Made by a program: the position numbers and the translations under genes. A stretch of DNA of 64,000 nt. It comes from an uncultured Roseobacter sp. (GTDB lineage Bacteria; Pseudomonadota; Alphaproteobacteria; Rhodobacterales; Rhodobacteraceae). This document shows positions 640 to 13,679 of this stretch, piece after piece; positions within the stretch are counted from its first letter, which is position 1; each line of letters begins with the position of its first letter. The stretch spans positions 62,001 to 126,000 of the forward strand of contig CANMWT010000003.1 in NCBI GenBank assembly GCA_947501635.1. Reading direction: 5' to 3'. The notes below the pieces were generated by a model that was not told where the DNA came from, ran no database searches, and worked only from the letters and a program-made list of their open reading frames with translations.

Positions 640-1656
640 TTATCTGGCCTGCACAGGAATGCAGTCAACGCCCTCGGCCTTGACCGCCGAGCAGAACCGG
701 CGCGTGTCGCTCAGGTCAACAAAGCCCATGGCACGCAGACGGTAAAAGGTACGTCCGCCTGATTGCGCTTCTTCGATGACGCGCGATTTCCCCTGCAGGA
801 TATCGCCAAAGCGAGTTTGCATACGACCCCATTCGGAGCGCGCCACATCGGGGCTGTCGAAGGCACCGAGTTGCGCCAGACGTGTGCCCGAAGGTATCTC
901 TGCAGGGTTGATCTCGACACTTTGTTGCGCCGGCGCAAAGGACGCAGGCTGCACAGCCGCCGCACCACCTGCCGGCCTGAGCCTCGGACGGATGGACTGG
1001 GCAAGGCCCTGCTGCGGCGCAGGCTCTTCAGTCACCAGCACTGCCGGCGTGGCGGTCAGCCCATCGGCGGCATCCGCCGCAATACTACGCGCGCCAACAA
1101 CTTTGGCACCCGGCACGTCCACACGCGGTTGCGCCTCTGACATCACCTCGGCAACGATGCTGTCAATTGCGTCTTCGGACAGCACTTCCGCGGGGGCCGC
1201 AGCCTCCACGGTGTCAAGTCGCATCACCTCTGCGTCATCGGATTGCGGCGCGGCAGCGGGCGCAATGACGGGCGCTGCGGGAACGGGTTGATCCTCGATA
1301 TCGAGCGAGACCGCAGGAGGTGCCAGTGTCACCTGATCGACAGGTCCGGCCGCGCGTCCGTTGGCCGCAATCTCGTTCACAGCAAGCCCTTGATGTTCAG
1401 CCAGAATGCCGCCGGGGTCTTCGGGGCGCACCCGCATCTCGCCTTCTGCCGCCCGGACCACCGGAATGCCGCTGACATCGCGCACCATCAATTTGTATCC
1501 CCAAACCCCGACACCAGCGATTAGCGCAAGCGACACAAGCGCACCTGCGATATTCGTCATCGTTATCAGAGAGTTCGGCCCGACCGGTTGCGGAGCCTGC
1601 GCGCCCGCCTCACGACCGTAAGCCCCCATGTTATGGGAGAATTCAACATCCGCCAT
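640..1656 (-). CDS. SPOR-domain membrane protein
   Basis: Single-pass inner-membrane protein of about 338 residues: short cytoplasmic N-terminus, one membrane segment at about residues 34-56, a long Ala/Pro/acid-rich periplasmic linker, and a C-terminal SPOR domain (about the last 75 residues, beginning GTRLAQLGAFDS). SPOR domains bind denuded peptidoglycan, typically at the division septum. I chose the ATG at 1656 because GGTGAGG lies just upstream; an ATG nine codons earlier (1683) lacks a good ribosome site. It sits between argS and nagZ on the same strand. The linker is low-complexity and not informative about function. Family assignment is firm; the precise cellular role is inferred. Confidence 0.85.
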   Translation of the reverse strand: MADVEFSHNMGAYGREAGAQAPQPVGPNSLITMTNIAGALVSLALIAGVGVWGYKLMVRDVSGIPVVRAAEGEMRVRPEDPGGILAEHQGLAVNEIAANGRAAGPVDQVTLAPPAVSLDIEDQPVPAAPVIAPAAAPQSDDAEVMRLDTVEAAAPAEVLSEDAIDSIVAEVMSEAQPRVDVPGAKVVGARSIAADAADGLTATPAVLVTEEPAPQQGLAQSIRPRLRPAGGAAAVQPASFAPAQQSVEINPAEIPSGTRLAQLGAFDSPDVARSEWGRMQTRFGDILQGKSRVIEEAQSGGRTFYRLRAMGFVDLSDTRRFCSAVKAEGVDCIPVQAR

Positions 1657-1736
1657 CAGTGCCTCACCGCCATCAGGGTACATTGCCCGTCAGGTCTGTC
1701 TTATGGTTGTCTGCTCTGGCGCCTGTGCAGCTTATT

Positions 1737-3479
1737 TTACCGCATTTCCTGCGCCGGTGTGACACCCAGAATACCAAGACCCGCTGCAATTACAACGCTG
1801 GTGGCACGGGCGAGCGCGATTTTTGACTGTGTGACTTTTGGGTCATCCTGTACAAACCGCAATTCGGGCAGGTCATTCCCCTTGTTCCAGAGCGCATGGA
1901 ACACACCCGCGAGCTCATATAAGTAGAACGCTACGCGATGCGGCTCGTTGCTGCGTGCGGCGGTTTCCACCAGACGCGGCCATTCCGCCAGTTTGGCGAT
2001 CAGGCCAATTTCAGACGGGTGGCTTAACAGTGTTGCATCCGCTGCTTGCAGCGTGGCGTCATCGGTCGCGATCCCCGCCTCTGCGGCTTTGCGCATCACC
2101 GATGCGACCCGCGCATGGGCATACTGCACATAAAACACGGGGTTTTCGCGGCTCTGCTCCAACACTTTGTCAAAGTCAAAATCCAACATGGCGTCGTTCT
2201 TCCGGGTCAACATGACAAAGCGCGTCACATCCGGCCCCACCTGGTCCACCACATCGCGCAGGGTCACGAATGTCCCTGCCCGCTTGGACATTTTGAATGG
2301 CTCGCCGTTTTTAAAAAGCTTCACCAACTGCGTCAGTTTTATATCCAGCGGCGTTTTCCCGTCAGACAAAGCCGATACGGCCGCCTTCATTCTTTTGACA
2401 TACCCACCGTGATCAGCGCCAAAGACGTCGATTAACGCATCAAACCCACGCTGCACCTTATCGTAGTGATAGGCGATATCCGGTGCAAAATAGGTCCAGC
2501 TGCCATCTGATTTCTTTACCGGCCGGTCCACGTCGTCGCCATGTTCCGTCGATCTGAACAACGTCTGTTCGCGTGGCTCCCAGTCTTCGGGTTTTTTACC
2601 CTTGGGGGGCTCAAGCACGCCCTCATAGATCAGCCCTTTGGCTTTCAGATCCTCGATCGCCGCCTCGATCAGACCGGTGCCATAAAGGGATTTCTCGGAA
2701 TAAAACACATCCATCTCGACGCCCAAAGCCTTCAGGTCCGCCCTGATCAGATCCATCATGGCATCAGTCGCAAACGCGCGGACATCTTGCAGCCAGAACT
2801 CTTCGGGCTGGCCCACATAGGCATCCCCCTTCAGGGCCTTGAGCCGCTCTCCCACGGGGATCAGATAGTCGCCCGGATAGGTGCCATCCGCAAAGGCGAC
2901 CTCTTGCCCGTGTGCTTCGAGGTACCGCAAATAGACCGAGCGCGCCAACACGTCGACCTGTGCGCCGCCATCGTTGATGTAGTACTCGCGCGTTACGTCA
3001 TAGCCTGCAAAATCCAGCAATGAGGCCAGCGCATCGCCGAAAACCGCACCGCGTGTATGGCCCACATGCAACGGCCCCGTCGGGTTGGCAGAGACATATT
3101 CGACATTTACCCGCTGACCGGTACCAATATCGGCGCGGCCAAAACCGGTGCCTGCCACCAAAATGGCATCCAGCACATCGTACCAGGCCTCTGGTGACAG
3201 CCGCAGGTTCAAGAACCCCGGCCCCGCGACCGACGCTGAAACGACCCGTGGATCTGTATTAAGCTTTTCAGCCAGAGCTTCGGCAATGTCGCGCGGTTTC
3301 AGACCGGCCGGCTTGGCCAGAACCATTGCGGCATTCGTTGCCATGTCCCCATGCGCGGGATCTCGCGGTGGCTCGACCGTCACATTGGTCAGCACCAGAC
3401 CTTCGGGCAGCTGCCCCTCGGCGGTCATCTGCCCCAGGCAGTCAAGCACAAGCTCGCGAATATTGGCAAAGAGGTTCAT
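1737..3479 (-). CDS. argS: Arginyl-tRNA synthetase
   Basis: Class I aminoacyl-tRNA synthetase charging tRNA-Arg. The 580-residue length is normal. An N-terminal Add-1-type domain is followed by the HIGH-type signature [12 protein letters not shown] (HVGH at 138-141) and a KMSK signature (FKMSKRAG, around residue 380), then an all-helical DALR anticodon-binding domain ending at the C-terminus. It is the first gene of a minus-strand group continuing into the SPOR protein and nagZ, after an 80-base gap. The start at 3479 is the only sensible one, with GGATCC-rich sequence upstream. Nothing unusual is seen. Confidence 0.98.
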
Positions 3480-3565
3480 AAGGATCCCACATCAAAACTC
3501 TGGCGCGGTTTATCACGCAGCGGGCGCGGGTCAACCTGCGCGTTGACGCACGACGGGTTCTCGCC

Positions 3566-4705
3566 CTAGAGGCCCACCAACCGCGTGTGCTCTTGAAGCG
3601 CAAAGCGGTCGGTCATACCGGCGATGTAATCCGATACAATGCGCGCCAGATCGGTTTCGGTCTGTGCCGCGTGCACATCCTTGCGCCATTGCTTGGGCAA
3701 CTGGTCGGGGTGCGCCATGAAGTGGGGAAAAAGCTCTTCCACAACCTGCGTGACCTGTTTGCGCATCACCACAACGCTGGGGGCGCGATACATGCGATCG
3801 AACAGAAAGGCGCGAATGACTTTCAGGTCTTCGAACACATCGTCGGAAAAGCGAATGATCGCATGGTCCGCTGCACGGATATCATCAACAGACTGCGGCG
3901 CAAGCTGGGACAGGCGTATTTGTGCCAGCCCGATCACATCTTCGACCAGAACCCCAAAGAAGCGGCGCAAGGCTTCATGGCGTCGGCGGTAGTAGTTCAG
4001 CCCCGGATACAGCGTATCCACATCCGAAAAACAGGCATTCAGGATCGGAAGCTCGGCCAATTCATCCGTCGAGAACAGTTCTGCCCGCAGCCCGTCATGC
4101 AGATCGTGATGATTGTAAGCGACATCGTCGGCAATCGCGGCCACCTGCGCCTCGGCGCTGGCAAAGGTATGAAGCTCAAGATCATGGCGCGTGTTGTAGG
4201 CGGCGAGCGCCCAAGGGACTTCACCGATTACGGGCCCGTTGTGCTTTGCCAAACCTTCCAGCGTTTCCCAGGTCAGGTTCAGACCGTCAAATTCCGCGTA
4301 ATGACGTTCCAGATCGGTGACGATGCGGATGGCCTGCGCGTTGTGGTCAAAACCGCCATAGGGTGCCATCATTTCCGCCAGCGCGTCTTCTCCGGTATGT
4401 CCAAAAGGGGTGTGGCCCAGATCATGCGCCAGTGCGACAGCCTCGGTTAACTCGGCATTCAGTCCCAAAGCGCCGGATATCGTCCGCGCCACCTGCGCCA
4501 CTTCGATGGAATGGGTCAGCCTGGTACGGTAGTAATCACCCTCATGCTCGATAAAGACCTGTGTTTTGTGCTTCAGCCTGCGGAACGCGCTGGCGTGAAT
4601 GATGCGGTCGCGGTCGCGCTGAAAACAGGACCGGAAAGTACTCTCCTGCTCGGGGATAAGCCGCCCGCGCGCCCTTGCGGGATCGGAAGCAAAGGGTGCT
4701 GTCAT
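3566..4705 (-). CDS. dgt: dGTPase-like deoxynucleotide triphosphohydrolase
   Basis: HD-domain dNTPase of about 379 residues, hydrolysing dNTPs to deoxynucleosides and triphosphate. Metal-binding HD elements are visible: RLTHSIEVAQVAR, then ALAHDLGHTPFGH with the paired HD, and a later D in DDVAYNHHD. The N-terminal basic stretch FRRLKHKTQVF is typical of the family. I take the ATG at 4705 (protein begins MTAPFASD) because AAGGAC lies upstream; a longer frame to 4792 would overlap the divergent Fe-S carrier gene. The divergent dgt/A-type carrier arrangement is common in alphaproteobacteria. Substrate preference among dNTPs is not readable from sequence. Confidence 0.93.
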   Translation of the reverse strand: MTAPFASDPARARGRLIPEQESTFRSCFQRDRDRIIHASAFRRLKHKTQVFIEHEGDYYRTRLTHSIEVAQVARTISGALGLNAELTEAVALAHDLGHTPFGHTGEDALAEMMAPYGGFDHNAQAIRIVTDLERHYAEFDGLNLTWETLEGLAKHNGPVIGEVPWALAAYNTRHDLELHTFASAEAQVAAIADDVAYNHHDLHDGLRAELFSTDELAELPILNACFSDVDTLYPGLNYYRRRHEALRRFFGVLVEDVIGLAQIRLSQLAPQSVDDIRAADHAIIRFSDDVFEDLKVIRAFLFDRMYRAPSVVVMRKQVTQVVEELFPHFMAHPDQLPKQWRKDVHAAQTETDLARIVSDYIAGMTDRFALQEHTRLVGL

Positions 4706-4786
4706 GGGCTGGGTCCTTGTCGCCTGTACTTTGAGTTTATATATTGTACTCGACACGTTAATAAAACCGCTTGACGGAGCACGGCA

Positions 4787-5110
4787 ATGCAACTCCCGCC
4801 CAAAGTAACCCCCCGCGCATTCGAACGTTTGGCCGAGATCGGCGCATCCGATCAGGGCAAGGCGCTCAGAGTTGCTGTCGAAGGGGGTGGCTGTTCAGGT
4901 TTTCAGTACGAGATTGATCTGGACGAGCCGCGCGCAGACGATCTGGTGCTTGAGGGTGCAGGTCAGAAAGTAGTTGTGGACGCGATATCGCTGCCATTTC
5001 TGGCCGACGCGGTGATTGACTTCAGCGAAGAGCTGATCGGCGCGCGGTTTATCATCAACAATCCCAACGCCAGCAGTTCCTGCGGCTGCGGCACATCCTT
5101 CTCGATGTAA
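4787..5110 (+). CDS. erpA: A-type iron-sulfur carrier (ErpA/IscA family)
   Basis: A 107-residue HesB/IscA-type protein that accepts and delivers Fe-S clusters to apoproteins. All three cluster-ligating cysteines are in place: GGGCSGFQY near residue 36 and SCGCGTSF at the C-terminus. It is divergently transcribed from dgt across an 81-base gap rich in A/T (TATATATTG around 4738), which probably holds both promoters. No isc or suf genes are adjacent, which favours an ErpA-like housekeeping carrier over a dedicated IscA, but the symbol remains an inference. It converges with the 349-residue unknown gene that ends at 5147. Confidence 0.9.
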   Translation: MQLPPKVTPRAFERLAEIGASDQGKALRVAVEGGGCSGFQYEIDLDEPRADDLVLEGAGQKVVVDAISLPFLADAVIDFSEELIGARFIINNPNASSSCGCGTSFSM

Positions 5111-5146
5111 CTTGAGCTTTCAGCTGCAATACATTGAATTAGAATG

Positions 5147-6196
5147 CTATAGCGCCCTCGAGAAACCCTCGAAGAAGGTCTCGAAACGCTGAGAAGACTG
5201 CGCCGCGCCTATGAGGATCGAGTGATGCTCGGGCGGCAGTGCCTGTTCAAACAAAACACGCATATGTGTCCAATTTCCGCTGCGGGCCGTGCCGAGTTGA
5301 TACATCAATTCGGAAATTGCGCGCAAAGGTCCGCGCTGCGAATGATGTCTTGAAATCTCAATAGCACCCGGCTGCTGCACACTGCGAAACCCGGACAGGC
5401 CGGCGATTGTGGCCCACCAGCTGGTCACAAGATACTCGTGATACGCATCCGCCGCAGGCGCTGAACCCACCGACCTGACGACAAAACCATGGACTTCTGT
5501 TTCCAGCCATTGCTCCCAGATTTCACTGGGCAACTGACCTGCAAACCGCAGGGCCACGCAGACTTCGGACAAAAGATCGACGTCCTGATCCAGATAGGCC
5601 AGCAAACCTGCATATTCGAGGCTGGTGATCGCGCGTTCTGGCAACGCAAGCGGCTGCGCACCATAGTCAGAGAGATAAAACACAATATGCGTCAGCTCGT
5701 AAGCAACTTTCTTGTTGGGCAATGCGAAGGTTTCCGCATGCGAGATAAACCGCAACAAGCGCGCATGAAGCGCCTCATCCGGCTCCGCCACATCTCTGCG
5801 GGCAAGCAAACGGTTTGCCTCCGCACGTTGTAAATCAGACAGCTCGCTTTCCGGCAGGGACGCCGCGCGCACTGTGTCGCACAGCCGCCGGCCCGTATCG
5901 CCGGGCATGCCCAGTTCCTCAAGATCAAGACAAATGGACAGCAGAAACCGGTAGTATTGCGGGAAAAACCGCATCCGTTCTTCAATTGTGTCGTAAAACG
6001 ACGCGTAAACCTCCAGCGCGTGTGTCGGCAACACCGCCCCGCTGGTTGCAAGTATATTCAGAACCTCGGCATTTTCCTTCAGCCAGAACACGTCGTCCGC
6101 CGGGCGTCTGTGCTGTGCAAAACTGCCGAGCAGTGCCGCCTGACGCTGCCCAAGGTTTGGTTTTTTCGGCAAGCCGATCGAAACAACATTTGTCAT
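5147..6196 (-). CDS. Unknown helical protein, partner of the LFTTSM-repeat gene
   Basis: A 349-residue soluble, mostly helical protein that I cannot assign to a named family. The most distinctive stretch is ELTHIVFYLSDYG at residues 167-179; another conserved-looking aromatic patch is YHEYLVTSWWA near 252-262. No signal peptide, membrane segment, nucleotide-binding loop, radical-SAM CxxxCxxC or protease motif is visible. The ATG at 6196 is chosen because AGCAGG precedes it; upstream in-frame codons overlap the repeat gene. It follows the LFTTSM-repeat gene by 79 bases on the same strand, with a strong hairpin between them, so the two are probably one transcript with reduced expression of this second gene. 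A role in handling or modifying the repeat peptide is inference only. Confidence 0.85.
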   Translation of the reverse strand: MTNVVSIGLPKKPNLGQRQAALLGSFAQHRRPADDVFWLKENAEVLNILATSGAVLPTHALEVYASFYDTIEERMRFFPQYYRFLLSICLDLEELGMPGDTGRRLCDTVRAASLPESELSDLQRAEANRLLARRDVAEPDEALHARLLRFISHAETFALPNKKVAYELTHIVFYLSDYGAQPLALPERAITSLEYAGLLAYLDQDVDLLSEVCVALRFAGQLPSEIWEQWLETEVHGFVVRSVGSAPAADAYHEYLVTSWWATIAGLSGFRSVQQPGAIEISRHHSQRGPLRAISELMYQLGTARSGNWTHMRVLFEQALPPEHHSILIGAAQSSQRFETFFEGFSRAL

Positions 6197-6235
6197 GAAA
6201 ATACCTGCTGGTTCGCGAAGGGTTTGTATCAGAAC

Positions 6236-6265
6236 CGGGCCGCGCCTTACCCCAGACGCGGCCCG
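6236..6265 (-). terminator. Intercistronic hairpin between repeat-peptide gene and its partner
   Basis: Perfect 9-bp GC stem (CGGGCCGCG at 6236-6244 with CGCGGCCCG at 6257-6265) and a 12-base loop. It falls between the stop of the repeat gene and the start of the downstream gene on the minus strand. No long T tract follows, so it is more likely an attenuator or mRNA-stabilising structure than a full terminator. Confidence 0.65.
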
Positions 6266-6275
6266 GCGGCAGACC

Positions 6276-6569
6276 TCAGCGGGCCGGCGACATGCTGGTG
6301 GTGAACAGCTCGGTGGCCTCACCAGAAAATGCATCGCGGCCGGATACCATGCTTGTTGTGAAAAGCCCGGTCTGAGCGCCCGTCATTGTGGACCCTTGTG
6401 GTGCCATGGAAGTTGTAAACAAGTCCGTCCCCTCACCGCTCATCATATCGGTGCCCTGTGGCGCCATCGATGTGGTGAAAAGACCAGTGGCTTCGCCCGA
6501 ATACGCATCGGCGCTCTGGTGGACATCAATTGCGTCAAAAGCTTCTACGGTCAGTGCTGAAGTATTCAT
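6276..6569 (-). CDS. Small protein with four LFTTSM repeats (candidate peptide precursor)
   Basis: A 97-residue protein with about 20 non-repetitive N-terminal residues (MNTSALTVEAFDAIDV...) followed by four near-identical 19-20-residue units. Each unit has the core SGEATxLFTTSM, with LFTTSM at residues 30-35, 50-55, 69-74 and 88-93, often followed by APQG. There is no cysteine, signal peptide or membrane segment. The ATG at 6569 has AAAGGGAT upstream. A perfect CtrA-type site sits 78 bases before the start. The leader-plus-repeated-core layout, the small size and the adjacent unknown gene resemble multi-core precursor peptides, but no recognised maturation enzyme is nearby. It could equally be a structural or regulatory repeat protein. 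Function unknown. Confidence 0.85.
   Translation of the reverse strand: MNTSALTVEAFDAIDVHQSADAYSGEATGLFTTSMAPQGTDMMSGEGTDLFTTSMAPQGSTMTGAQTGLFTTSMVSGRDAFSGEATELFTTSMSPAR
6279..6512 (-). repeat. Four tandem 57-60-bp coding repeats
   Basis: DNA encoding residues 20-97 of the LFTTSM protein. The period is 60, 57 and 57 bases. The four units share the LFTTSM block exactly but differ at synonymous and flanking positions, so the peptide rather than the DNA appears to be conserved. Confidence 0.85.
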
Positions 6570-6646
6570 CGTTTATCCCTTTCTGTGGATGCTTAATGCC
6601 CTTTCACGTTTGCCCGCATAAGGAGAGTTTAAAAGAAATATTCTCG

Positions 6647-6663
6647 TTAAGGATACGTTAACC
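6647..6663. promoter_or_regulatory. CtrA-type site TTAA-N7-TTAACC
   Basis: TTAA at 6647-6650, seven bases, then TTAACC at 6658-6663. This matches the full alphaproteobacterial CtrA consensus TTAA-N7-TTAA. It lies 78 bases upstream of the repeat-peptide start and about 250 bases upstream of xthA. Binding is inferred from the match only. Confidence 0.6.
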
Positions 6664-6668
6664 ACCGG

Positions 6669-6810
6669 TTATCCACAGGCTCGCTTCCCGGCATATCTTC
6701 CCGTCGGGCGGGAATAATCCGACATTGCATCTGCAGAAAAAAAATTTGTCCACAGGGGATAACTCTGTGGATATTAACCATTCACAATCGTTAACGATCA
6801 AAAGGTTAAC
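6669..6810. promoter_or_regulatory. DnaA-box-like 9-mers and TTAAC half-sites in the 342-base intergenic region
   Basis: The gap 6570-6911 holds no convincing gene. It contains TTATCCACA at 6669-6677 (exact DnaA box), TTGTCCACA at 6746-6754 and, inverted, TGTGGATAT at 6766-6774 (each one mismatch). The last two form the arms of an inverted repeat, TCCACAG at 6749-6755 and CTGTGGA at 6765-6771. TTAAC half-sites follow at 6774, 6791 and 6806. The segment is A/T-rich compared with its surroundings. It probably regulates the divergent repeat-peptide gene and xthA; no replication genes are adjacent. Confidence 0.5.
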
Positions 6811-6911
6811 AAGAATCACCTCCCCCGAATTGGTGAGTTGGTGGTCGCTTCGCTCTTGCCCGGGGAGCACGCATCAGCGATACCCCATGAGAGACGCAAA
6901 GGAGCTGGGGC

Positions 6912-7694
6912 ATGAAAGTCGCAACATTCAACATCAACGGCATCAAAGCCCGCATCGAGGCACTGCCAGCATGGCTGGACGAGGCGCAACCCGACGTGGC
7001 CTTGCTGCAGGAAATCAAGTCAGTGGACACGGCATTCCCGCGCGAGATTTTCGAAGACCGTGGGTACAATGTCGAAACCCACGGGCAGAAAAGCTTTAAC
7101 GGTGTGGCCATATTGTCGAAGCTGCCGCTGGAAGATGTCACACGTGGGCTGCCCGGTGATGACGACGACGAACAGGCGCGCTACATCGAAGCAACCGTGA
7201 TGGGCGATCAGCATGCGGTGCGGCTCTGCGGATTGTACCTGCCAAACGGGAATCCCGCGCCGGGGCCAAAGTACGACTACAAGCTGGCGTGGATGGAGCG
7301 TCTCTACCGCCGGGCACAGGTTTTACTGGCCAGTGAGATGCCCTTTGTCATGGCCGGCGACTACAACATCATCCCGCAAGCAGAGGATGCCGCCAAACCC
7401 GACAGCTGGCGCGAAGATGCCTTGTTCCGTCTGGACAGCAGAACGGCCTTTCGAAAACTATTAAATCTGGGGCTGACCGAAGCCTTCCGGGCCCGAACGC
7501 AAGGCCCCGGGCACTACAGCTTTTGGGATTATCAGGCCGGCGCGTGGAACCGCAACAATGGTATTCGCATCGATCACTTGCTTCTGAGCCCACAGGCGGC
7601 GGACATGCTGACAGATTGCCAGATCGACAAGGACGTGCGCGGACGCGACAAGCCATCGGACCACGTGCCCGTGTGGATCGATCTGGCTGCCTGA
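6912..7694 (+). CDS. xthA: Exodeoxyribonuclease III
   Basis: AP endonuclease and 3'-5' exonuclease of base excision repair, 260 residues, normal length. The exonuclease-endonuclease-phosphatase fold is evident from ATFNINGIKAR at the N-terminus, the metal-binding Glu in LLQEIKS (about residue 34), LYLPNGNP, the GDYNIIP motif with catalytic D-x-N, and the C-terminal SDHVPVWIDL carrying the Asp-His pair. AAGGAG precedes the ATG. It stands alone, divergent from the repeat-peptide gene and convergent with the TerB-like gene that ends at 7722. Confidence 0.97.
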   Translation: MKVATFNINGIKARIEALPAWLDEAQPDVALLQEIKSVDTAFPREIFEDRGYNVETHGQKSFNGVAILSKLPLEDVTRGLPGDDDDEQARYIEATVMGDQHAVRLCGLYLPNGNPAPGPKYDYKLAWMERLYRRAQVLLASEMPFVMAGDYNIIPQAEDAAKPDSWREDALFRLDSRTAFRKLLNLGLTEAFRARTQGPGHYSFWDYQAGAWNRNNGIRIDHLLLSPQAADMLTDCQIDKDVRGRDKPSDHVPVWIDLAA

Positions 7695-7721
7695 CCGGTC
7701 CGGCCCTTGACCGCCGCTACA

Positions 7722-8462
7722 TCATTGATAGATGCGTGGCACCGCAAGACTGTCATGCAACTGATTAACCGTCGAAGGCGACAGCCCCAGACGCTGCGCT
7801 AAAGTGTGCAGATACTCGGCTTCGGCGCGATTGTCGGGACTGATGGCGTTCAGGGACATGGTGTAGACCTGTGTCTCTACCCCTTTCGGTGTTGCATCTG
7901 CGATTGCGGTGGGGTCCGCCGTTTCCCGCAGTATCTTGCTGACCGTCTCCATCTCCTCGGGCCCTGACCCCTCAAAAGCTTCAAGCAGCTTGGCCTTTTC
8001 CTGCGGATCGATATCGCCGTCCGCGCGCGCCGCATAGAGCATGGCGCGTAGCATCAGTTGCGCCATCTCGTCCTCGTCCGGTTCCTGAGAGGGGTTGTCC
8101 TGATCAAGCAATGCTTCAAGCTGGCTGGCCGCGGCCCCCCCGCGCGCCCCTGCGAGCCCGCCCAGAAGCCCGCCGATACCCGCCAATCCGCCAGCGGAAG
8201 CCGACTGCCCGCCAGAGCCCGAGCCGGTAAGCTGGCCCAGCATATCGCCCAAACCGCCGGACGCTCCACCGCCCGCACCAGAAAGTTGGCCCAAAAGGTC
8301 ACCAAGGCCACCCATTCCTCCGGCACTGCCAGCTTGCGACGTGGCAGCGCCTTGCAAGTCCTGCATCAAAGCGCCGATCCCGCCGCGTTGATTGACGGCC
8401 TGCATTCCCTTGGCGACGGCAAACCCTATCGCCATTTTCGTAACGGTATTCATCAGTGACAT
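7722..8462 (-). CDS. TerB-like (DUF533-type) protein with Gly-rich middle
   Basis: A 246-residue protein. A short N-terminal segment (MSLMNTVTKMAIGFAVAKG) is followed by about 90 residues rich in Gly, Ser and Ala with GGLGDLLGQL-like repeats, then a C-terminal TerB-like helical domain containing MLYAARADGDIDPQEKAKLL. That is the acidic metal-binding signature of tellurite-resistance TerB and of YebE/DUF533 inner-membrane proteins. I choose the ATG at 8462 because GGGGAG sits nine bases upstream; an ATG three codons earlier directly abuts that site. Biological role of the family is poorly known. No other ter genes are in the window. Confidence 0.8.
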   Translation of the reverse strand: MSLMNTVTKMAIGFAVAKGMQAVNQRGGIGALMQDLQGAATSQAGSAGGMGGLGDLLGQLSGAGGGASGGLGDMLGQLTGSGSGGQSASAGGLAGIGGLLGGLAGARGGAAASQLEALLDQDNPSQEPDEDEMAQLMLRAMLYAARADGDIDPQEKAKLLEAFEGSGPEEMETVSKILRETADPTAIADATPKGVETQVYTMSLNAISPDNRAEAEYLHTLAQRLGLSPSTVNQLHDSLAVPRIYQ

Positions 8463-8662
8463 CGATCGCATCTCCCCAGAGCTTCGCTTACTGTTACTAT
8501 CCGCCGATCTTGGACGGCTGATACAGACAGGTCCAGTATATTTATGTGACACGTTGAACGCAGCATTTGGCTGTGTCATCCGCAGGTGGCTTTACCGATG
8601 GCTGCAAACTATCCCCCCACCATTGCACCAAAAGCGCCGCAGCAAGGATCGCGCGGTCAGCG

Positions 8663-9247
8663 CTATGCCTCCAATTCGGCATCCCAATACAGAAAATCCA
8701 TCCAGCTTTCATGCAGGTGGTTGGGCGGAAACTTTCTGCCCATGTTGCGTAGTTCTTCTGCCGCAGGCTGGCGCGGTGGTTTGCGCAACGACAGCCCCGT
8801 TCGGTGCAGCGGTTTGGAGCCTTTTTTGAGGTTGCAAGGGCTGCAGGCGGCCACCACGTTCTGCCAGCTTGTGACACCGCCCGAGGCCCGCGGCACCACG
8901 TGATCGAAAGTCAGATCGCCGCGCGCGCCGCAATATTGACAGCGGAATTCGTCCCTCAAAAACAAATTAAAGCGCGTGAAGGCCACGCGCTTTTGAGGTT
9001 TCACATAGTCTTTGAGAACAACGACCGACGGTATCCTGATCTCGGTGCTTGGGCTTCTGACGATATCATCATACTCCGCGACGATATCCACCCTGTCGAG
9101 CCATGCCGCCTTGACCGCTTCCTGCCAGGGCCACAGCGACAGAGGGTAATAGCTCAGTGGTCGGTAATCTGCATTGAGCACCAATGCCGGCCGGTGTTTC
9201 AAGCTTGCAGGGTTACGGGTAAACTCAGTTCTGAAATCGCCGTCCAT
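8663..9247 (-). CDS. HNH endonuclease
   Basis: A 194-residue HNH-family nuclease of the small stand-alone type widespread in bacteria. The zinc and active-site elements are in order: RCQYCGA, LTFDHVVPRASGG, a Trp-Asn pair (SWQNVVAAC) and SPCNLKKG. The N-terminal VLNADYRPLSYYPLSLWPWQEAV is typical of this subfamily. It is monocistronic, and a candidate promoter (TTGCCA-N16-TATAGT read on the minus strand, about 9337-9310) overlaps one arm of an inverted repeat, suggesting regulation. Such proteins have no fixed function; they are not necessarily linked to restriction or mobile DNA. Confidence 0.9.
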   Translation of the reverse strand: MDGDFRTEFTRNPASLKHRPALVLNADYRPLSYYPLSLWPWQEAVKAAWLDRVDIVAEYDDIVRSPSTEIRIPSVVVLKDYVKPQKRVAFTRFNLFLRDEFRCQYCGARGDLTFDHVVPRASGGVTSWQNVVAACSPCNLKKGSKPLHRTGLSLRKPPRQPAAEELRNMGRKFPPNHLHESWMDFLYWDAELEA

Positions 9248-9307
9248 AGTGCACTGTACCTTTTGCCGTTCCGCGTCCGGTCCGGCGGGCCAGTCCCGCC
9301 GATAGCT

Positions 9308-9365
9308 TGACTATATCTCGTGGTTTTTCTCTGGCAAGCCCTTCGTTGACCACAAGATATCGCTC
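9308..9365. promoter_or_regulatory. Inverted repeat overlapping the HNH gene promoter
   Basis: ATATCTCGTGG (9313-9323) and CCACAAGATAT (9350-9360) are inverted copies with one mismatch, separated by 26 bases. The left arm overlaps a possible -10 box of the HNH gene. The arms loosely resemble halves of NrdR boxes. The regulator is unknown. A further exact DnaA-box 9-mer, TTATCCACA, lies at 9402-9410. The rest of the gap 9248-9510 shows nothing recognisable. Confidence 0.45.
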
Positions 9366-9510
9366 AATACGTAGAATGCACAGATGACAGGCAGATGACA
9401 GTTATCCACAGGCCGGCAAGCCATGCCACAGGGATCATCCCTTTCAAGGCCGCGGCCAGAAAGACATGGAAACCCCGGGGGTTCTACTATTCAGGCAGGT
9501 GCGTGTGGAA

Positions 9511-9669
9511 TCACTTGCGGCCGCTGGCCGCCTCATGGCCGTCCCCACGGGACTGCGCCGCCATCCGCGCGGCCAGTGAACGCTTGCGCATGACGAAAAT
9601 CGCGACGAATACCGCGAGGCAGATCAACGTGCCGATGTTAGCTTCCTCAAGCAGTTCTTGAAGCATCAT
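9511..9669 (-). CDS. Possible small membrane protein (52 aa)
   Basis: A short frame starting MMLQELLEEANIGTL with one predicted membrane helix (GTLICLAVFVAIFVM, about residues 14-28) followed by a basic stretch (RKRSLAARMAAQ). This is a typical positive-inside single-pass layout. The ribosome site is weak, and a longer frame to 9897 exists but reads like non-coding sequence upstream. Function unknown. The 276-base gap to the next gene at 9946 shows no clear elements. Confidence 0.4.
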   Translation of the reverse strand: MMLQELLEEANIGTLICLAVFVAIFVMRKRSLAARMAAQSRGDGHEAASGRK

Positions 9670-9945
9670 TTGACCGGTTTCCGTTCTGTTGGTTTCGACC
9701 ACACCGCTGACGCGTAAGGTGCAAAGCTGACAATTCTGTGGCAATTGCTGCAAATTCTTTAGTGTTATGCCGGGTGCCCGTGATTGCCGTCCACAGCGTG
9801 TCGGGCGGCACAAAGGCCGGATCGGCGCCGGACCCGCGGGGGACTTGGCCTGCTGCGAAGGCATGCAAATGCCCTTGTATCGCCCTGATCCAGACACACA
9901 GGACGCCGACTGTTTTCGGATATTTTAGTCAAAAGGAATATACCC

Positions 9946-10281
9946 ATGCGTAAACTCATAGCCGCAGCAACGCTCGGCGCAATTCTTGGTAGCGCTGCAA
10001 CCGCGCAGTCTTACAATCTGGAAACCTGCTTTGAAGAGGCGGGCCTTAAATACGTGGCCCAAGAGGCCGGCATCGACATGGCCACCGCCCGCCAGGTTGC
10101 TCCGCTGATGCCGCAGGGCAAGGCCATGCTCGCATCCATGCGCGACTCCGCCGCCGCTGCAGACCGCGCCCGCGCGTCCGGGGTCGACAAAGACACCCTG
10201 ATGATCGTGGCCCGCGGGTCCATGGCCGACACGCCCGCTCTGGGCGGCTACGTGGCGTCTTGCATCAACAGATACTACTGA
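9946..10281 (+). CDS. Small exported protein of unknown function
   Basis: A 111-residue protein with a clear Sec signal peptide (MRKLIAAATLGAILGSAATAQ, cleavage near residue 21). The mature part of about 90 residues is helical, contains two cysteines (about residues 28 and 106) that could form a disulfide, and ends in NRYY. AAAAGGAA precedes the ATG with good spacing. I do not recognise the family. It is a single gene, with the esterase gene running toward it on the opposite strand. Confidence 0.75.
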   Translation: MRKLIAAATLGAILGSAATAQSYNLETCFEEAGLKYVAQEAGIDMATARQVAPLMPQGKAMLASMRDSAAAADRARASGVDKDTLMIVARGSMADTPALGGYVASCINRYY

Positions 10282-10356
10282 CAGACCGTTCCCTGCGGGG
10301 CGGGCCATGCGGCGGCTTTCAACAAGCCGTCGCCGCTGCCAAACCGCACGCTGTGA

Positions 10357-11022
10357 CTACAGGCTCAGCTTGTCGCGCATAAACGCCAGTGCCACCGACA
10401 GCCCATCAGGCGCGATGCCGTGGCCTGTGCCTTTCATGATATGCGCGTAGACGTCCTTCCAGCCCGCTTCCTGCAAGGCCTCGGCGGCTTGTGGCAGCGA
10501 TTGCGGCGGGACAACATCATCCGCATCGCCGTGCACCAACAGAACCGGGGGGCGCACCACGACCTCATCCGCCAGTGTTTCGGGTGACAGCAAGCGGCCG
10601 GAAAAGGCGACGATACCCGCGACCTCGTCTTCGCGCCGCGGCGCCACATGCAAAGCCATCATTGTGCCTTGCGAGAAACCAAACAGCACCACCTGCTCGG
10701 GCAGCACATCTTCATCCACCATGAGAGCGTCGAGAAAGGCATTCAGGTCATCGACTGCCTGAACCATGCCGCGCATCGATTCTTCCTCGGAAGAGCCGTC
10801 AATCCATGGGATGGGGAACCACTGGAAACCGAACGGGGCCCCCGCACAGGCCTCGGGCGCATCGGGTGCAATGAACATCGTGTCGGGAAGATGCTCTCCC
10901 AGCGGGTCGGCAAGACCCAACAAATCAGCGCCATTTGCGCCATAGCCATGCAGAAAGACAACGATGGAGCGCGTCTGCCCCGAAACCGGCGCGCGGCGCT
11001 CTGCTTTCAGTACCCGTGTCAT
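10357..11022 (-). CDS. Phospholipase/carboxylesterase family alpha/beta hydrolase
   Basis: A 221-residue alpha/beta hydrolase of the YpfH/EstB carboxylesterase family. The oxyanion segment FLHGYGANGADL is followed by the nucleophile elbow GFSQG (Ser around residue 115), the acid HGDADDVVP, and the catalytic His in GTGHGI. It overlaps the end of alkA by 4 bases, so the two are translated together on one transcript with cobK. The substrate is likely a short-chain ester or thioester and cannot be specified. Confidence 0.88.
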   Translation of the reverse strand: MTRVLKAERRAPVSGQTRSIVVFLHGYGANGADLLGLADPLGEHLPDTMFIAPDAPEACAGAPFGFQWFPIPWIDGSSEEESMRGMVQAVDDLNAFLDALMVDEDVLPEQVVLFGFSQGTMMALHVAPRREDEVAGIVAFSGRLLSPETLADEVVVRPPVLLVHGDADDVVPPQSLPQAAEALQEAGWKDVYAHIMKGTGHGIAPDGLSVALAFMRDKLSL

Positions 11023-11666
11023 AATATACCTTCCCGTTCCTTGATAACGCGGTAGTACGCAAACAAAAGCCGCGCTGCAACAGAGCGCCAGGGCGACCAG
11101 CTTTGGGACATTTTCCGCAGCTGCCCATCGGTCGGTCGGGTGTCGAGCGCATAGAGGTTCTGAGCCGCCATTTGCAGCGCCAGGTCGCCGGAGGCAAAAA
11201 CATCCGCGCGCCCCAGGCTGAACATCGCGTAAATTTCTGCCGTCCAGCGCCCGATCCCCGGTACAGCGGTCAGTGTCGCGACGATTTCCTCGTCTGGCAT
11301 GTCACGCAACGCGGCATAATTGATATCCGCTGCGGCCAGCGCCTGCGCGTATCTGACTTTCTGTCGGCTGAGCCCCAACGCCCGCAGATCCTCGGCACCT
11401 GCCGTGCTGATCGCGTCTGGCGTTGTCATGCCCGCGCTGTGCAAGCGGTCCCAGATCGCCCGTGCCGAGGCGACGCTGACCTGCTGGCTGACAATAGCGT
11501 TGAAAAGTGCGCCAAAGCCATCGTCACGGCGGCGCAAAGGCAAAGGACCTGTCTGCTGCAGGGCGCGGTGCATATGCGGGCATTGCGCGGCAAGCCATGC
11601 AGCCCCTTCTGCCACATCCGCATCGGTGTCGATCAGTCGGCGCTGTGCCAAAGCGCGGCCTCCCAT
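11019..11666 (-). CDS. alkA: DNA-3-methyladenine glycosylase II (AlkA-type)
   Basis: HhH-GPD superfamily glycosylase of about 215 residues that excises alkylated purines. The helix-hairpin-helix LTAVPGIGRWTAEIYAMFSL is followed by the catalytic Asp in ASGDLAL. IVSQQVSVASARAIW in the first half is also characteristic. The ATG at 11666 is preferred; upstream codons in the same frame read into cobK and look non-coding. It overlaps the 3' end of cobK by 34 bases and the esterase by 4. It lacks the N-terminal AlkA domain of E. coli, as many alphaproteobacterial homologues do. Confidence 0.92.
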   Translation of the reverse strand: MGGRALAQRRLIDTDADVAEGAAWLAAQCPHMHRALQQTGPLPLRRRDDGFGALFNAIVSQQVSVASARAIWDRLHSAGMTTPDAISTAGAEDLRALGLSRQKVRYAQALAAADINYAALRDMPDEEIVATLTAVPGIGRWTAEIYAMFSLGRADVFASGDLALQMAAQNLYALDTRPTDGQLRKMSQSWSPWRSVAARLLFAYYRVIKEREGIL

Positions 11667-12391
11667 GACAAGGCCTCGGCCACGGTTTCGACCTGTGGGA
11701 CAGTTTGCGCGGGCAGCTGGCGGTCCACCATTATCACCGGCAGGCGCAGCGCACGCGCCGCCAGTAGTTTCGACATACTTGAGGGCCCTCCGACATTGCG
11801 ACAAACAAGATGCGTCACACCCAAACGCCGAAAGAGGTCTTCTTCCTGAAACTGCGAAAAGGGAGGCTGACCTTCGATACATTCGACAAAATCGAAGGGC
11901 GGTGGCCGCGCGGTGCTGCCGGTCTGGCGCAAATAGAGCTTGCGCCCCTTGAATTCCGCAAAAGCGCCCAGGCTTTGCCAGCCCGTGTTTGCAAAAACGC
12001 GCGCGTCACGCGGCAAGGCGGCAGCCGCGTCTTGCAGGCTTGCTACATGTTGCCAGATATCGTGCGCTGTGGCGGTCCAGGGGGGGCGCAGAAGGCGCAG
12101 GTAGGCCAGTCCCTGTGCCGCGGCAACGGTACGAGCCATGTCACAGACATCATCGTCAAAGGCGTGGCTGGCATCGAGGATGACGCCCACGTTGTTGTGC
12201 AACAGCCAGTTGGCAAAGCTGCGCGGTCCATCAAAGAGACCGACCCTTGTGGGCACCGGCAACGCGTCGAACATCCGCTCGGGTTCGGGCAGGCTCGCGA
12301 TAACCCGCCGGCCACGCGAGACCAACCCTGTGACCAGCGCATGCGCTTCGCGCGCGCCTGCCATCACCAGCGTTGTGTGTTCCACATTCAT
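11633..12391 (-). CDS. cobK: Precorrin-6A / cobalt-precorrin-6A reductase
   Basis: NADPH-dependent reductase of corrin-ring synthesis, 252 residues. Family features are the central VILDASHAFDDDV (cognate of the DATHPFA motif), the C-terminal CRNVGGPSSMSKLLAAR, and RLPVIMVDRQ. The start at 12391 gives MNVEHTTLVMAG, a good Rossmann-like opening. It is separated from other cob genes in this window. The product would feed the B12 needed by the class II ribonucleotide reductase at 24-28 kb. It is divergent from the MFS transporter. Confidence 0.9.
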   Translation of the reverse strand: MNVEHTTLVMAGAREAHALVTGLVSRGRRVIASLPEPERMFDALPVPTRVGLFDGPRSFANWLLHNNVGVILDASHAFDDDVCDMARTVAAAQGLAYLRLLRPPWTATAHDIWQHVASLQDAAAALPRDARVFANTGWQSLGAFAEFKGRKLYLRQTGSTARPPPFDFVECIEGQPPFSQFQEEDLFRRLGVTHLVCRNVGGPSSMSKLLAARALRLPVIMVDRQLPAQTVPQVETVAEALSWEAALWHSAD

Positions 12392-12467
12392 GGATGCGAC
12401 TTTAAGCCTGTGACGCGGCGGAGCAATAGGCTTGCAGCCGGGCGGTTTTTGACGATACCCAGAGCGC

Positions 12468-13679
12468 ATGGAAGATACATCCGATACCCGGGCGAAACGC
12501 AACGTGGTGGTCCTTGTACTGGCGCAGGCCGTGTTGGGCGCACAGATGCCGATGCTGTTTACGATCGGGGGGCTGGCCGGCCAGTCTCTGGCCAGCAACA
12601 TCTGTTTTGCCACCCTGCCGATCACCCTGATCGTGCTGGGGTCAATGCTGGCCGCGACGCCGATTTCGGCGATCATGCAACGTTATGGCAGGCGGGCAGG
12701 CTTTATGGTCGGGGCGGCAGCGGGTGCCCTGGGGGGCGCTGTGGGCGCTTATGGGCTTTATCTTGCCTCTTTCCCGGTGTTTCTGCTGGGCAGTCTGATA
12801 ACCGGCTTTTACATGTCCGCACATGGGTTTTACCGCTTTGCTGCGGCCGATACCGCCTCGGAGAGCTATCGGCCCAAGGCCATTTCCTACGTGATGGCAG
12901 GGGGGCTGGCCGCCGCGATTGTGGGCCCGCAGTTGGTCAAGTTGACGGCCGACGCCTATGTCATACCCTTTATCGGCACCTATGTGGCGATCATCGGGTT
13001 GAATGTGGCAGGGGCGTTTTTGTTTTTCGCGCTCGATATCCCCAAACCGCCGCCGCCAAGTCCGGAAGAGGGTGCCGGTCGCACGCGTTGGGAGCTTATC
13101 ACCACGCCGCGCATCGCGGTTGCTGTCATTTGCGCCACCGTCACCTATGCGCTGATGAATCTGGTGATGACATCGACCCCGCTGGCCGTTGTCGGCTGTG
13201 GCTATACCACCAACAACGCGGCAGATATTGTCACCGCACATGTTCTGGCGATGTATGTGCCGTCGTTCTTTACCGGGCATCTGATTGCTCGTTTCGGGGC
13301 TCAGCGCATCATGGCGCTGGGGCTTTTGATCCTTGGGGGCGCGGGAGGTGTTGCCCTGTCAGGCGTCGCGTTGGAAAACTTTTTTGCGGCCCTGATACTT
13401 TTGGGCCTGGGCTGGAACTTTGGCTTTATCGGGGCGACTTCGATGCTGGCCGAGGAGCACAGCGCACAGGAGCGTGGTCGCGTGCAGGGGCTGAACGATT
13501 TCATTCTTTTTGGCGGTGTGACGCTGGCATCGCTATCCTCGGGGGGGTTGATGAATTGCTCCGGTGGGTCCCCCGAGGAAGGGTGGATGGCGGTGAACAT
13601 CGCGATGGTGCCGTTTCTTGTGCTTGCCGGTGCCGCCCTGATCTGGTTGATGTTCCAGCCGAAGACACGGGTGGCCTGA
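12468..13679 (+). CDS. MFS transporter
   Basis: A 403-residue major facilitator protein with about 12 membrane segments. The loop-2 signature appears as RYGRRAGFMVGAAAGALGG and its second-half copy as ARFGAQRIMALGLL. A Pro-rich, charged central loop (IPKPPPPSPEEGAGRTRWEL) separates the halves. It belongs to the YfcJ/riboflavin-like bacterial MFS group, but the substrate cannot be deduced. It is divergent from cobK over a 76-base gap. Confidence 0.9.
   Translation: MEDTSDTRAKRNVVVLVLAQAVLGAQMPMLFTIGGLAGQSLASNICFATLPITLIVLGSMLAATPISAIMQRYGRRAGFMVGAAAGALGGAVGAYGLYLASFPVFLLGSLITGFYMSAHGFYRFAAADTASESYRPKAISYVMAGGLAAAIVGPQLVKLTADAYVIPFIGTYVAIIGLNVAGAFLFFALDIPKPPPPSPEEGAGRTRWELITTPRIAVAVICATVTYALMNLVMTSTPLAVVGCGYTTNNAADIVTAHVLAMYVPSFFTGHLIARFGAQRIMALGLLILGGAGGVALSGVALENFFAALILLGLGWNFGFIGATSMLAEEHSAQERGRVQGLNDFILFGGVTLASLSSGGLMNCSGGSPEEGWMAVNIAMVPFLVLAGAALIWLMFQPKTRVA

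Follow-up and report, generated by a model that had tools for sequence, protein, structure and literature searches.

Within the window, that is, the whole 64,000-nucleotide stretch of Roseobacter DNA that we analysed, two genes follow one another on the minus strand: a 97-aa open reading frame (6276-6569) and, after a gap of 79 nt, a 349-aa one (5147-6196). Both lie where the sequence-only reading had located them. The features of the locus are listed below.

5147..6196, minus strand: DUF6902 protein of 349 aa, the proposed core-modifying enzyme and probably a peptide epimerase, with conserved Y166-x-L-T-H170-x-x-F-Y, D207/E211 and Y252-H253
6235..6266, minus strand: GC-rich hairpin between the two genes, with a perfect 10-bp stem (6235-6244 / 6257-6266), mostly unconserved in relatives
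6276..6569, minus strand: putative tandem-core precursor of 97 aa, an N-terminal part of about 24 residues and four units ending in G-[E/A]-x-T-x-L-F-T-T-S-M
6465..6482, minus strand: core 1, LFTTSM, residues 30-35
6405..6422, minus strand: core 2, LFTTSM, residues 50-55
6348..6365, minus strand: core 3, LFTTSM, residues 69-74
6291..6308, minus strand: core 4, LFTTSM, residues 88-93
6669..6677, plus strand: DnaA-box consensus TTATCCACA, the gene-proximal member of a pair, upstream of the precursor
6746..6754, plus strand: DnaA-box-like TTGTCCACA, 77 bp from the first and in the same orientation
6766..6774, minus strand: third, inverted DnaA-box-like sequence ATATCCACA
10357-11022: Abhydrolase_2 gene, 3.8 kb from the gene pair
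12468-13676: MFS transporter gene, 5.9 kb from the gene pair

In the 97-aa protein, LFTTSM starts at residues 30, 50, 69 and 88 (spacing of 20, 19 and 19), and Cys is absent. This bears out the earlier description of four such units with a period of 19-20 residues and no Cys. When the residues were shuffled, any 6-mer was present even twice in 28 out of 20,000 shuffles, whereas the real precursor holds one 6-mer four times. A degenerate DNA pattern for the core gave 4 matches in the 4.2-Mb assembly, all of them inside this ORF. Summed over unit pairs, differences between the four cores amount to 30 synonymous and 0 nonsynonymous changes. They use differing codons without any change of residue, and therefore it is the protein sequence that is kept.

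Neither Pfam nor NCBIfam gave anything above cut-off for the window peptide. Pfam returned nothing above cut-off for 4 further precursors either, the sole weak match among these being to IQUB (E 0.0026, below its cut-off); a known repeat family was rejected accordingly. No signal peptide was seen by eye. The AlphaFold model of the window peptide has a mean pLDDT of 43 and no predicted fold, which makes a folded structural repeat protein less likely. In one genome of the window's own genus (L036, 989-1282), FVSAS replaces LFTTSM in all four units.

The partner gene was taken to start at 6196, which yields 349 aa; an earlier ATG would yield a 395-aa ORF. An M-x-N-[VI] start lies at this point in 16 out of 19 aligned relatives, their start codons being those chosen nearest to the start of the window partner. 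The sequence-only reading had described a 349-residue protein with a distinctive motif that could not be placed. The size and the motif (ELTHIVFYLSDYG, residues 167-179) stand, but the protein can be placed: it belongs to the Pfam family DUF6902 (PF21843; 464.1 bits against a cut-off of 27, E 3.3e-139, residues 1-348) and is related to DUF6895 (PF21836), whose curated threshold it also passes (73.8 bits, cut-off 23.8). No Pfam family other than these two matched at E <= 1.

Comparison of the DUF6902 family with a plasmid DUF6895 protein in hhalign gave a probability of 87.5 (E 3.6e-6) over a stretch that contains His170, Asp207, Glu211 and His253, and the motifs Y-x-[LV]-T-H, D-x-x-x-E and Y-H are common to both. 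In an alignment of 20 partner proteins, which includes one member at only 21% identity, the invariant residues are Y166, L168, T169, H170, F173, Y174, D207, E211, D250, Y252 and H253. From this conservation, the His, Asp and Glu residues common to DUF6902 and DUF6895 look catalytic.

AlphaFold (50 sequences) produced a confident, nearly all-helical model of the partner, with a pLDDT of 93 and a pTM of 0.91; the helix at 162-175 contains H170, that at 206-218 both D207 and E211, and that at 252-264 H253. A search of the PDB by sequence gave no match at E <= 1, and a search by fold with Foldseek gave nothing at E <= 0.001. Among the weak, non-significant Foldseek matches are chains of the pheromone receptor PrgX and a designed repeat protein that has a peptide bound.

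Partner homologues are 49-65% identical to the window protein in 49 relatives, the closest among the best 80 of 359 relatives being that of Roseobacter sp. H9 (65%). A match to the enzyme superfamily was found in 11 out of 11 genomes searched of the window's genus, the window genome included, while 72,556 plasmid records yielded no DUF6902 match at E <= 0.001.

From the letters alone, the locus had been read as a possible multi-core peptide system, with the questions of whether the two genes always co-occur and whether the repeat number varies. We surveyed 295 genomes of the family, representing 294 genera. The enzyme is present in 82 of them and the repeat peptide, searched for with a profile built from 18 precursors, in 76. 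All 76 peptide genomes also hold the enzyme, and in the 213 enzyme-negative genomes no profile-detectable repeat peptide was found. Of the six enzyme genomes missed by the profile, three contain a divergent repeat peptide, with AMMCCS-type cores twice, MMSCS twice or ALSPSC many times; in two (G039 and G288) no precursor was seen, and in one (G139) the locus is interrupted by a contig end. Among the loci of the best 80 of 359 relatives, an array lies upstream of the enzyme in 78, the remaining two being interrupted by contig ends. The number of units varies from 2 to 20 across 82 precursors. This linkage and the variable repeat number support the reading as a multi-core peptide system.

The 82-precursor set consists of the window, 78 loci of relatives and 3 divergent loci, and differs from the 82 enzyme-positive genomes. 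It comprises 563 units (median of 7 per precursor), spaced mostly 19-21 residues apart, and 24 dominant 5-residue cores. The C-terminus coincides exactly with the end of a core in 63 precursors. Apart from the variable core, the units repeat a recognition part, G-[D/E]-x-[T/V]-x-x-[M/L], with Gly at position -6 in 95% of 568 units (a count in which locus L121 was taken as 13 units, 7 of them real, as it also was for the spacing and for the consensus-based identity and pN/pS values). The cores are rich in Ser and Thr at positions +1 and +2. At the N-terminus, conservation is weak over a short stretch of 20-30 residues, with M-[NST]-A-x-x-K in many precursors.

Cores are alike within a precursor and differ between precursors. 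For positions +1 to +4, identity was 98-100% within and 33-56% between precursors, the former being inflated because the units had been chosen by likeness to the consensus 5-mer. As such a choice favours within-precursor likeness, we also used a core-independent anchor (81 of the 82 precursors, 553 units), which includes some mis-registered units and gave 85-89% within and 32-53% between. Between units of one precursor, pN/pS rose from 0.11 in the core through 0.52 in the recognition part to 0.87 in the linker for consensus-picked units (pS 0.51-0.58), and from 0.26 through 0.52 to 0.88 with the independent anchor (pS 0.53-0.58). Thus, at a similar synonymous divergence, amino-acid change is 3.5 to 8 times lower in the core than in the linker. 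Hence the cores are mostly old copies that selection has kept alike, rather than freshly copied units alone. That their identity is due entirely to recent gene conversion is unsupported, since synonymous divergence in the core is as high as in the linker.

The whole set of cores nevertheless switches between close relatives: two loci whose enzymes are 94.6% identical carry FSSGS in all 6 units of one precursor and FTSGS in all 7 of the other. In one clade of Marivita and relatives we found IMSAS, FTSAS, FTSGL, FTSGS and FTTSC. Mapped onto the enzyme tree, the cores of 79 labelled rows can be explained by 28 changes, a figure obtained without a shuffle control. Precursors with mixed cores also exist, e.g., in L066 and in a Ruegeria pomeroyi strain (L076; FSSGS and FSTSC).

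Between the two genes, the sequence-only reading had noticed a 9-bp hairpin without a strong T tract and described this as a layout that often serves to make more precursor than partner. The hairpin is there and has no T tract, but its stem is 10 bp long, and the proposed role does not generalise. A perfect stem of at least 7 bp between precursor and enzyme genes occurs in just 20 out of 78 loci, the window included and L063, L065 and L071 left out of the count, and the mean z against mononucleotide shuffles is -0.65 (78 loci). We therefore rejected an attenuator hairpin as a general device for the precursor-to-enzyme ratio. In L065 and L007 the gap between the genes, mostly 37-106 nt elsewhere, reaches 343 nt and holds another small ORF, perhaps the decayed end of an array.

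In the window, the pair is surrounded by genes for arginyl-tRNA synthetase, an HD phosphohydrolase, an Fe-S biosynthesis protein, an exonuclease III-type protein and DUF533, and further by those for an HNH protein, an Abhydrolase_2 protein, HhH-GPD, CbiJ and an MFS transporter. None of them is known to belong to the pair, and neither is any exporter, protease or second modifying enzyme. Pfam detected neither a lasso leader protease nor a lactam synthetase among the 12 proteins of window 640-13676, one of which had no match. We followed seven neighbours across 62 loci with full flanks. The usual ones are the housekeeping genes xth (61 loci), erpA (57), dgt (57) and argS (55); HNH (12), Abhydrolase_2 (5) and DUF533 (1) are uncommon, which leaves them unsupported as parts of the system. 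As only housekeeping genes are usual among these neighbours, the pair stands alone, and no conserved protease or exporter lies beside it among those tested.

In 14 enzyme-negative genomes (obtained from 30 erpA loci fetched, 80 genomes searched), the gap between xth and erpA measures 35-284 nt in 11 and 600-700 nt in 2, and xth is out of reach in 1. Since xth and erpA are neighbours in enzyme-negative genomes too, the pair looks like a cassette that some genomes carry at this one site and others lack.

Upstream of the peptide ORF, strict TTATNCACA sequences, which we take to be the DnaA-box consensus, are concentrated. Within 350 nt there are 88 of them in 75 loci, with at least one in 54 loci. 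By comparison, the 75 kb lying further upstream contain 0 and the 221 kb downstream 1, and mononucleotide shuffles yield 0.88. In 35 out of 79 loci (the window and among L048-L127), two boxes of the relaxed TGTGNANAA form point the same way at a distance of 74-79 bp. In the 3.3-kb erpA locus of the 14 enzyme-negative genomes there is no strict box in any. Genome-wide, the box itself is not enriched in the window's genome (43 occurrences, 46 in the reversed control). A second exact TTATCCACA lies at window 9402-9410, 2.7 kb from the first. Judging by the motif, the pair may be under DnaA control, or under that of another regulator with a similar site.

The DnaA-box pair raised the question of an oriC. 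Coarse GC skew, sampled in 20 stretches of 12 kb from each of two complete genomes, puts the locus near a positive-to-negative switch or some 0.6-0.8 Mb from it, and not at a negative-to-positive one. Together with the absence of a strict box from the erpA locus of 14 out of 14 enzyme-negative genomes, this led us to reject the site as oriC, on such coarse sampling.

Clues to function come from the related family. According to its title, a paper by Shi et al. (2026, ACS Catal. 16, 1757; cited in PMC13352647) presents a DUF6895 member as an epimerase that takes part in modifying lasso peptides. For the window partner, an epimerase activity is thus drawn from this title and from a distant relative. 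With the enzyme so named, the window partner shares homology above the Pfam cut-off; it differs in belonging to a separate Pfam family, DUF6902.

We examined 12 DUF6895 loci outside the bacterial family surveyed, eight from plasmids (four from Streptomyces, two from Kitasatospora and one each from Pseudalkalibacillus and Cupriavidus) and four from other genomes. All 12 pass the DUF6895 cut-off, and similar Y-x-[LV]-T-H, D-x-x-x-E and Y-H motifs occur in the plasmid proteins; five more matches (G337, G356, G461, G747 and G757) remained below threshold. In all 12 a small precursor-like ORF lies ahead of the enzyme gene or operon, clearly in 11 and plausibly in Cupriavidus. Several of these precursors have a leader resembling [SA]G[IL][IVL][ND], some have a GPW[YF] tail, and at two loci the unit is doubled inside one ORF. 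Such small ORFs fit a superfamily that would act on short ribosomal peptides. Inspection of the Roseobacter window peptide, a tandem array, revealed neither this leader nor the tail.

Taken together, we consider it fairly probable that the pair is a minimal two-gene multicore module of the RiPP type, in which every core is modified by DUF6902, most likely through epimerisation. The data show the array, its adjacent and almost obligate link to DUF6902, its variation and selection pattern, and the homology of DUF6902 to DUF6895; from these we infer catalysis, the kind of modification, cleavage, export and a biological role. The small protein would be a leader-poor multicore precursor whose unit of about 20 residues combines a recognition part with a core of 5-6 residues. 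DUF6902 would bind G-[D/E]-x-[T/V]-x-x-[M/L] of each unit and convert at least one residue of the core to the D form, with two of His170, Asp207, Glu211 and His253 serving as acid and base. The array would next be cleaved by proteases of the host into several short peptides of identical sequence, so that each lineage may make a modified peptide of its own. Points against this reading are the want of a classical leader and the different look of the precursors next to DUF6895 genes, and also the lack of a PDB match, the two enzyme genomes in which no precursor was seen, and the precursors with mixed cores.

The same multicore precursor might serve another reaction, e.g., dehydration, cyclisation or hydroxylation of the Ser/Thr-rich core. 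Ser and Thr at +1 and +2 would suit this, as would the placement of DUF6902 and DUF6895 in separate Pfam families with substrates that look unlike. However, epimerisation is the sole activity that we found named for the superfamily, in a source known by its title, and the partner matches no other Pfam family at E <= 1, so we regard a different modification as unlikely. Quite unlikely is that DUF6902 is a helical receptor or chaperone that binds the cores, the array being a pro-pheromone and the pair a signalling system. The all-helical model, its non-significant resemblance to PrgX chains and to the peptide-bound designed protein, and cores that vary by lineage and switch as a set are in line with this idea, but no PDB match reached E 0.001, Pfam finds no DNA-binding domain in the partner, and the His, Asp and Glu conserved in common with DUF6895 look catalytic.

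It is very unlikely, in our view, that the repeat protein acts uncut, a disordered scaffold of many binding sites with DUF6902 as its partner, and that nothing is released. This would agree with the lack of a predicted fold, of a signal peptide visible by eye and of a conserved protease or exporter among the tested neighbours; arrays of 2-20 units with wholesale switching of short cores nevertheless fit many copies of one product better, and in 63 out of 82 precursors the last residue of a core is also the last of the protein. Least credible is an array of toxins or bacteriocins for which DUF6902 would supply the matching immunity or antitoxin function, an explanation to which we give hardly any weight. 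Variable cores do adjoin a constant partner in a cassette present or absent at one site, but the partner is conserved (49-65% identity in 49 relatives) while the cores vary widely, and its DUF6895 kin adjoin other small peptides.

Several known systems share some properties with the epimerising module that we favour. Multiple D-residues in a ribosomal peptide are known from radical-SAM peptide epimerases and proteusins; the DUF6902 partner matches no radical SAM family. Microviridins are made by an ATP-grasp enzyme. In multicore microviridins, several cores per precursor are served by one processing enzyme (PMC5934393), and in this the proposed module is like them. Here the enzyme is a different one, there is no long separate leader, and the cores are replaced as a set between relatives. 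Lasso systems differ in that no lasso genes were found among the 12 neighbouring window proteins tested. MslH is the metal-dependent epimerase of the lasso peptide MS-271 (PMC10406935). The proposed common reaction is L to D inversion within a ribosomal peptide; the DUF6902 partner, in contrast, has no metallophosphoesterase match and an all-helical model. The fold of MslH is presumably that of a metallophosphoesterase, unlike this model. The literature that we consulted, which was open-access and mostly without subscription papers, contained no recognisable description of the precursor/DUF6902 system.

If the proposed module is real, about a quarter of the family genera sampled (81 out of 294) make a modified peptide of an undescribed kind, and DUF6902 would be a peptide epimerase consisting of one compact protein, able to act on very short and variable sequences and so useful for placing D-residues in peptides. 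The array itself is a natural experiment, with many copies of a short core kept identical by selection and yet switched as a set between close relatives. A bolder extension, which we offer as speculation with a modest chance of being right, is a widespread leaderless class of multicore D-peptide RiPPs in roseobacters. One enzyme would mark every core and so give many copies of a D-containing peptide of 5-6 residues, every lineage would hold to a single core sequence, replaced as a set, as a lineage-specific signal or kin tag, and synthesis would be tied to the replication state via the paired DnaA boxes. Because the Ruegeria pomeroyi strain (L076) carries the pair, it can be tested in a culturable species.

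Some DUF6895 loci show additional features. A helical-looking protein follows DUF6895 in L136 (7831-8316), L137 (7643-8290) and L138 (8482-9576), where these three separate proteins match no Pfam family, and seems to be fused in L139. The Pseudalkalibacillus plasmid (L137, 3163-8290) has a bacteriocin-like layout: an 86-aa peptide precedes the DUF6895 gene, and upstream lie genes of SpoIIM type and for an ABC transporter. Two Streptomyces plasmids (L178, 6037-9892, and L180, 5644-9724) encode a small peptide ending in LLLSPP[AT]PRPKKG together with an unplaced protein, two DUF6895-like genes in tandem and a serine hydrolase; this group of genes looks like a separate peptide cluster.
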